This document shows positions 1 through 8,771 of a stretch of 44,403 bases of DNA, one piece after another; within the stretch, counting starts at the first letter, position 1; every line of letters starts with the position of its first letter. This DNA comes from Pannonibacter indicus (GTDB lineage: Bacteria; Pseudomonadota; Alphaproteobacteria; Rhizobiales; Stappiaceae): contig NZ_LIPT01000016.1 of the NCBI RefSeq assembly GCF_001418225.1, positions 17,861-62,263 of the forward strand, written 5' to 3'. The notes beneath the pieces were generated by a model. It saw only the letters and a list, made by a program, of their open reading frames with translations. It searched no databases and was not told the origin of the DNA. The position numbers and the translations under genes were made by a program.

Positions 1-823
1 GCGTTCCCCGCACACGCGGGGATGAACCGTGATCGTGCGGTTTGATCCCGACCGGCTGCACGCGTTCCCCGCACACGCGGGGATGAACCGGAGGGATACG
101 GCCAGCTGCACAGGAGGATCGGTGCGTTCCCCGCACACGCGGGGATGAACCGCGCGGCTGCAGCGAGTGACCGCAGATGCGGACGCGTTCCCCGCACACG
201 CGGGGATGAACCGGCCAGGCGTGCCGGGGCGATCACCGAGGAGCTGCGTTCCCCGCACACGCGGGGATGAACCGACAAGATGCGGCGCACCAGCGCCGCC
301 CCGACCGCGTTCCCCGCACACGCGGGGATGAACCGAGTCCATCGCAGCTATCACGGATGACGCAGCCGCGTTCCCCGCACACGCGGGGATGAACCGGCTG
401 TCAGTTGCTGCATTGATTTTCCTCACTTGCGTTCCCCGCACACGCGGGGATGAACCGCTGGCGCAGGGGGTCGGCAACGTCATGTGAAAGCGTTCCCCGC
501 ACACGCGGGGATGAACCGCCGGGGGGGGGCACCCACGAGCGCGAGCGGGTGCGTTCCCCGCACACGCGGGGATGAACCGGGCGCGGTCCAGATGGAAGAG
601 CTTCGGCAACAGCGTTCCCCGCACACGCGGGGATGAACCGTGGGACTTCGCGCGCAGCCTGACCTATCGGATGCGTTCCCCGCACACGCGGGGATGAACC
701 GTCATCGTCAGATTTGATCCCGACCGGCTGCACGCGTTCCCCGCACACGCGGGGATGAACCGCCCCCGATTGGTCATGAGTATTTTCAGGGCCTGCGTTC
801 CCCGCACATGCGGGGATGAAACG
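1..823 (+). CRISPR. Type I-E CRISPR array, leader-distal part (14 repeats, 13 spacers)
   Basis: A 29-base repeat (GCGTTCCCCGCACACGCGG then GGATGAACCG) starts at 1, 62, 124, 185, 246, 307, 368, 429, 490, 551, 612, 673, 734 and 795. Spacers are 32 bases, except the second (91-123), which has 33. The repeat is palindromic in its middle and closely resembles the E. coli type I-E repeat, including an ATGAACCG 3' end that would form the 8-base crRNA 5' handle. The last repeat (795-823) carries two changes (ACACG to ACATG, AACCG to AAACG). A degenerate terminal repeat marks the leader-distal end, so transcription should run left to right, and the leader, newer spacers and cas genes should lie left of position 1. 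The window starts exactly on a repeat, so the array is probably cut by the window edge. Minus-strand open frames inside the array are artefacts of the repeats. Confidence 0.98.
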
Positions 824-8018: not shown

Positions 8019-8771
8019 ATGCCCGTCTTCAGATCCGATATCGCCGACATTGCCTACATCGATGAGGGGGAGGGGGAGCCGATCCTGCTGATCCACGGCT
8101 TTGCCTCGAACAAGTCCGTCAACTGGGTCAATCCGGGCTGGGTGGATCTTCTGGTCAAGGATGGCCGCCGGGTGATTGCCCTGGATAACCGGGGCCACGG
8201 CGAAAGCGGCAAGTTCTATGATCCGGCGGACTATGGCGCGCCGATGATGGCCGAGGATGCCCGGCGGCTGCTGGATCATCTCGGCCTCTCCAGTGTTGAT
8301 GTGATGGGCTATTCCATGGGCGCCCGCATCACTGCCTTTCTGGCGCTCAATCATCCGGACCGGGTGCGCCGGGCAATCTTCGGCGGCTTGGGCTACGGCA
8401 TGATCACCGGCATCGGTGATGGCGAGCCGATTGCCCGGGCGCTGGAAGCCGAAAGCCTGCAGGACATTCCCGATCGCACGGGCCGGGCCTTCCGCGCCTT
8501 TGCCGAACAGACCGGAGCCGACAAGCGGGCGCTGGCGGCCTGCATCCGCTCGTCCCGGCAGAAGATTTCCGAAGAGGATGTCGCCCGCATCGCCCGCCCG
8601 GTGCTGGTGGCCGTTGGCACGAAGGACGACATTGCCGGATCGCCGCAGGCGCTGGCGGACCTCATTCCGGGCGCAAGGGTGCTGGAGATCCCCAACCGCG
8701 ATCACATGGTCGCCGTGGGCGACAAGGTCTACAAGCAGGGCGTCCTCGACTTCCTGGCGCAGACCGCATGA
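8019..8771 (+). CDS. Alpha/beta hydrolase 1
   Basis: A 250-residue alpha/beta-hydrolase fold enzyme. The oxyanion-hole motif HGF is at 26-28, the nucleophile elbow GYSMG gives Ser99, an acidic residue is at 203/204 (TKDD), and the catalytic His is 229 (RDHM). There is no signal peptide, so it should act in the cytoplasm on an ester, amide or similar bond; the substrate is unknown. Its stop codon overlaps the start of the next hydrolase gene in an ATGA, which implies translational coupling. A possible role in lipid or polyester turnover is speculation. Its promoter should lie in the 228 bases between it and the divergent zinc-finger gene, where I see no clear consensus. Confidence 0.9.
   Translation: MPVFRSDIADIAYIDEGEGEPILLIHGFASNKSVNWVNPGWVDLLVKDGRRVIALDNRGHGESGKFYDPADYGAPMMAEDARRLLDHLGLSSVDVMGYSMGARITAFLALNHPDRVRRAIFGGLGYGMITGIGDGEPIARALEAESLQDIPDRTGRAFRAFAEQTGADKRALAACIRSSRQKISEEDVARIARPVLVAVGTKDDIAGSPQALADLIPGARVLEIPNRDHMVAVGDKVYKQGVLDFLAQTA

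Follow-up and report, generated by a model that had tools for sequence, protein, structure and literature searches.

Two spacers with apparently silent differences in a type I-E CRISPR array of Pannonibacter indicus suggest repeated capture of one site in a Mu-like phage transposase gene

The stretch of Pannonibacter indicus DNA analyzed here (44,403 nt, hereafter the window) starts within a type I-E CRISPR array, array 2, which ends in a degenerate repeat at position 823 (Table 1). The same contig carries, to the left of the window, the leader of array 2 and the cas genes; the start of array 2 is found there beside cas2, and the cas operon, cas3 and array 1 are in this region too. Among nine proteins scanned in the cas locus, eight matched PADLOC-DB models and provided the set cas3, cas8e, cas11e, cas7e, cas5e, cas6e, cas1e and cas2e; the other one, a 357-aa ORF, had no match in PADLOC-DB. 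The cas operon is that of a complete type I-E system. The repeat of 29 nt, the spacers of 32 or 33 nt (mostly 32) and the period of 61 fit this type, and the repeats in the window are identical in 13 of 14 cases, with the terminal repeat differing at two bases.

Table 1. Features of array 2 within the window.
Feature	Coordinates	Strand	Description	Sequence
Type I-E CRISPR array 2, trailer half	1..823	+	14 repeats of 29 nt, 13 spacers	
Spacer A1	30..61	+	newer of the A pair; IVRFDPDRLH of MuA C-terminal domain	TGATCGTGCGGTTTGATCCCGACCGGCTGCAC
MuB spacer	91..123	+	33 nt, adjoins A1, one step older; EGYGQLHRRIG of MuB-like ATPase	
Spacer A2	702..733	+	older of the A pair; second from trailer end	TCATCGTCAGATTTGATCCCGACCGGCTGCAC
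Spacer B2	763..794	+	oldest in array; PPIGHEYFQG	
Degenerate terminal repeat	795..823	+	2 mismatches; mark of the trailer end	

In CRISPR arrays the newest spacers are located at the leader end, and the oldest ones at the trailer end with its degenerate repeat. A leader-like sequence, alike at 52 of 60 nt, was found upstream of both arrays; because of these similar pre-array sequences and the degenerate repeat on the opposite side, the oldest spacers are placed at the right end of the array in the window. The readable spacers were 22 from array 2, leaving out masked parts, and 30 from array 1, and these 52 spacers of the window genome (G000) are reduced to 48 once four exact duplicates are collapsed. 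At two places in array 1 (L009 6773-6987 and 7566-7780), a block of two spacers is duplicated exactly and in tandem. In E. coli, the last base of the PAM becomes the last base of the repeat. The leader-proximal repeat of array 2 (L009 16573-16601) has A as its final base instead of G, which would fit a last repeat base coming from the PAM of the new spacer.

Ten other spacers separate A1 from A2. Aligned at shift 0, the two have 28 of 32 bases in common, including the last 21, and mismatches at positions 2, 8, 9 and 11. This likeness had been reported in the first-pass annotation and was confirmed here, in the same register and far beyond chance, as the expectation for pairs with at least 27 of 32 bases alike is 3.4e-7 (52 spacers, 17 shifts, both strands) under a simple model with 60% G+C. 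The next-best pair among 200 spacers of four genomes, excluding the exact pairs and the three diverged ones, scores 22. Read in frame +2, both spacers have ten complete codons that encode IVRFDPDRLH, and the three differences that fall in complete codons are all synonymous (GTG/GTC, CGG/AGA). The fourth, at position 2, affects a codon that is split by the spacer edge; the change is synonymous if the first codon base, outside the spacer, is G or C and nonsynonymous if it is A or T. With the terminal G of the repeat as this base, as would follow from the E. coli rule given above, the codon is valine in both spacers. The earlier reading of the differences as compatible with synonymous change is therefore upheld, with three of the four synonymous in frame and the fourth able to be so. 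In 40,000 trials, four random substitutions were silent in frame +2 in 0.6% and in any of the six frames in 2.7%. That all four differences fall within the first 11 bases (0.9%) is a post hoc observation and was dropped as evidence. Positions 2 and 8 are inside the type I-E seed; from mismatches at these positions, poor cross-protection of each spacer against the target of the other is predicted as likely.

The coding site was traced through homologous genes. In L079, the ORF around the IVRFDPDRLH site matches the Pfam families DDE_2, HTH_Tnp_Mu_1, HTH_Tnp_Mu_2 and Mu-transpos_C, as well as PHROG 310 (transposase), and the A site falls inside Mu-transpos_C (residues 502-561). A relaxed motif search of viral contigs returned 83 stretches, and since these contain the motif by construction, independent tests carry more weight. 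A MuA catalytic-domain profile, which has no knowledge of the spacer, found nine places in eight genomes among 101 relatives; eight places in seven genomes were compared together, and the eighth genome, G080, apart. The A site was present in register in L191, L199, L202, L204 and L206, with 24-27 of 32 bases matching A1, and in L201, with 24 of 32 matching A2, while two places in G004 reach merely 21-22 of 32 to A1 and A2. Given that reversed-spacer controls peak at 24 of 32, the matches of 26-27 are distinctive by their score and the others by their position. The same-genus transposases have VIVRFDPDHL at the A site. Based on the Pfam matches and on the in-register homologues in the same genus and the same family, IVRFDPDRLH belongs, by sequence, to the C-terminal domain of MuA, the transposase of Mu-like phages, and so what had been offered at first as a guess turned out to be right.

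Searches of viral contigs, phage records, 101 relatives and 385 genomes of the class gave no exact protospacer for either A spacer, and the single match in the scan of genome contigs is a homologue and not an exact protospacer. The best E-value of A1 in a blastn search of phage records was 0.3, and the closest homologues of the A site agree at 29 of 32 bases. At 67 homologous A sites, the PAM position reads AAG in 7 and AGG in 24. Compared with same-genus prophages, A1 and A2 match at 26 and 24, 21 and 22, and 22 and 22 bases, A1 not being consistently the nearer. A spacer of G004, a genome of the same genus (L178, reverse strand, 17665), matches a Mu-like prophage of G001 (L191, 5205) at 31 of 32 bases after an AAG; the match falls in a 152-aa frame, which stops at the start of the MuA frame, and is thus outside MuA. 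This AAG is the sole clean PAM, and for the A pair the PAM evidence is indirect. In the stretches compared, the two Mu-like prophages of G004 itself showed nothing above 21 of 32 to the same spacer. The A pair ties the host to Mu-like phages, and the host's own genome has no match to Mu-transpos_C at an E-value of 10; the A site is found there in the array only, and self-targeting was rejected on these grounds.

The spacer adjoining A1 also points to this group of phages. All 11 residues of its peptide are identical to a MuB-like protein in G206, which matches Pfam Phage-MuB_C and AAA_22 and is encoded downstream of MuA. In a scan of 1.55 Mb, this peptide scored 61, against 49 for the best reversed-spacer control, and peptide scores of 49 or below in that scan were discarded because the control reaches this value. 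The best-scoring A and MuB sites are located 1.17-1.30 kb apart on one strand in nine of 11 loci; the other two, L171 and L175, had no usable MuB site. A spacer of array 1 encodes QTLNAANYAA, and all ten residues (10 of 10) recur in frame in the protein annotated as the major capsid protein of Rhodovulum phage vB_RhkS_P1; the DNA is alike at 28 of 32 bases, and the other genes of this phage are annotated as Mu-like. The capsid match, at the maximum possible score of 49, was retained since it arose in a smaller scan of six phages with controls at or below 44 and since 28 of 32 DNA bases agree in an annotated gene. From the MuA, MuB and capsid matches, several spacers of the host point to Mu-like phages; spacers against such phages in general are ordinary.

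The window genome contains a second diverged pair. Neither this pair, which has one member outside the window, nor the MuB spacer and the published precedent discussed below figured in the first-pass annotation. Spacer B2 has a newer partner, B1 (L009 17464-17495, left of the window), with 27 of 32 bases alike at shift 0. In PPIGHEYFQ, three of the differences affect third codon positions silently, and the remaining two change the one residue that follows, which is G or N; silence of this degree is expected by chance in 1.3% of cases in frame and 8.6% in any frame. Searches for the target of pair B with degenerate patterns gave no match in two viral-contig scans, one and nine matches in the others, none in genome contigs, and four places beyond its own array in 397 genomes of the order. 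The lone viral-contig match and the four places in genomes of the order are not credible relatives. The nine viral-contig matches were also set aside, as a long ORF in the frame of the motif was present only in L207, with ORFs of 19-131 aa elsewhere, and the peptide did not continue. Peptide scans of the loci compared returned nothing for pair B.

Repeat matches were found in six other genomes. Stretches of four of these were examined, among which that of G008 had no array, and G001 (one match) and G052 (three matches) were left out. With G000 included, the spacers of four genomes were compared, 200 in total (G000 52, G002 66, G004 29, G090 53). Three diverged pairs, each at shift 0, occur among these spacers: G000 has two, G002 has one, and G004 and G090 gave none. 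The pair of G002, which is of the same genus, consists of two spacers in different arrays with 29 of 32 bases alike, and silent changes are not overrepresented in it (0.28 in frame). In that genome (L177 4907, 5029, 15311 and 15372), one spacer is identical across both arrays and a spacer nearby forms the 29 of 32 pair. It is as if both arrays of G002 had taken spacers from matching sites of related elements.

Here it is proposed that the A pair most probably arose because one protospacer was captured independently, at least twice, from Mu-like phages related to each other. The identical repeats between A1 and A2 argue for capture from outside instead of mutation within the array. In the proposed sequence of events, A2 would go back to an early capture and A1 to a later one, both of the same 32-nt protospacer in the conserved region coding for the MuA C-terminus, their sources presumably being successive related phages with silent differences at the site. 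Uniform sampling would seldom repeat a site, because two Mu-like phage genomes contain 1232 and 711 AAG sites; an exact re-capture would be favored if acquisition strongly prefers certain AAG-flanked prespacers, and prespacers are described as unequally used in E. coli (PMC6282206). The partial match of an older spacer may also have primed the later capture, which would update the array against a poorly covered variant. According to PMC5904413, some seed-mismatched targets in E. coli without detectable interference still prime.

For priming in type I-E systems, PMC6787059 describes spacers acquired on the PAM side of a priming site as having the same orientation as that site, and spacers acquired on its far side as reversed. 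The A1 and MuB sites share a strand and are about 1.2 kb apart, with A1 on the PAM side, and A1 was the next spacer added after the MuB spacer. The MuB spacer as a primer for A1 fits the rule as given in PMC6787059, an orientation which is expected by chance in half of the placements; A2 as a primer of the MuB spacer goes against it. Priming perhaps contributed to the pair. A broader proposal, that the type I-E systems of this genus act as site-specific updaters in which priming and hot spots re-record a conserved phage site for each silent variant, is doubtful at this stage. The observations that bear on it are the three register-exact pairs among 142 distinct spacers of the genus; two of these pairs each include one of the two oldest spacers of a single array.

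Hot-spot sampling could account for the pair by itself, through two naive captures in which a few AAG-flanked prespacers dominate, without priming and with the new spacer owing nothing to the old one, and the chance of this is a little short of even. It draws on the unequal prespacer use in E. coli already cited (PMC6282206), on G002, where a spacer is identical in both arrays and its near neighbor belongs to a diverged pair, and on the shift of 0 common to the three diverged pairs; however, the published correlate of hot prespacers gives a mixed picture, internal AAG being clearly rarer than in shuffled sequences in G000 (6 counted, 14.0 expected), barely so in G002 (17 counted, 20.1 expected) and not rarer in G004 (10 counted, 9.4 expected). 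Recombination between the arrays of different strains could also have joined two independently acquired alleles with no double capture in one lineage. Arrays do rearrange, as seen in the exact two-spacer duplications of array 1, but the two pairs run in opposite order, A2 being newer than B2 and A1 older than B1, so that a single imported block is no simple fit, and this origin is considered improbable.

The same exact duplications could suggest that a spacer was duplicated within the array and one copy mutated afterwards. The array-1 duplicates are, however, undiverged, and the 13 repeats from position 1 to 762 are identical although the A spacers differ at 4 of 32 positions, with differences that are silent for a gene outside the array. 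An origin by duplication is therefore hardly credible, in agreement with the first-pass annotation, which had already set it aside.

Repeated capture, the preferred reading, has a published precedent. Rao et al. 2016 (PMC5071653) described, for the type I-C system of Legionella pneumophila Toronto-2005, two pairs of older and newer spacers against LME-1, in which the older spacer was spoiled in its PAM or seed and primed re-acquisition was proposed. The likeness lies in older and newer spacers of one array with a common target region; as described there, the Legionella pairs are of type I-C and concern overlapping regions with the target element in hand, whereas the Pannonibacter pair is of type I-E, has an exact register and silent coding changes, and is known from its spacers. 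Nearly identical spacers in one genome, sp59 and sp63, were also described in Candidatus Methanomassiliicoccus intestinalis, which differ, unlike the A pair, by one mismatch and one extra nucleotide (PMC6336856). Within the text available in the open-licence literature, no register-exact silent spacer pairs in type I-E systems were found. The CRISPR system of Pseudomonas aeruginosa that faces phage DMS3 is of type I-F. In that different host, as described in PMC11406979, a Mu-like phage is likewise met by an imperfect CRISPR match. In light of the precedent described in PMC5071653, A1 and A2 are an unusually clean example of repeat capture.

Register-exact spacer pairs would be ordered allelic records of one phage site, and such pairs would allow memory updating and hot-spot sampling in type I systems to be tested against each other from genomes alone. 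They also indicate that a conserved stretch of a transposase gene can still vary silently where the guide reads first.

Another element of the locus is found between array 1 and cas8e, left of the window (L009 9669-9830), where two degenerate repeats enclose a short pseudo-spacer and form with it a mini-array. A mini-array of this form is also present in G002 (L177, about 8129-8290), likewise between array 1 and cas8e; the stretch of G004, which is partly masked, showed none. In G000 and G002, an AAG-flanked site lies shortly downstream of the mini-array and agrees with the pseudo-spacer at 12 of 15 and 14 of 15 positions, respectively, scored on the first 17 positions with every sixth omitted, a level reached in 0 of 5000 shuffles in either genome. 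Judged from these matches, the mini-array before cas8e looks like a CreTA module, in which a crRNA-like guide would act over a toxin promoter. It resembles in its type I-E locus and in its position the CreTA of Citrobacter rodentium, described as located between cas3 and casA of the type I-E locus (PMC12055562).
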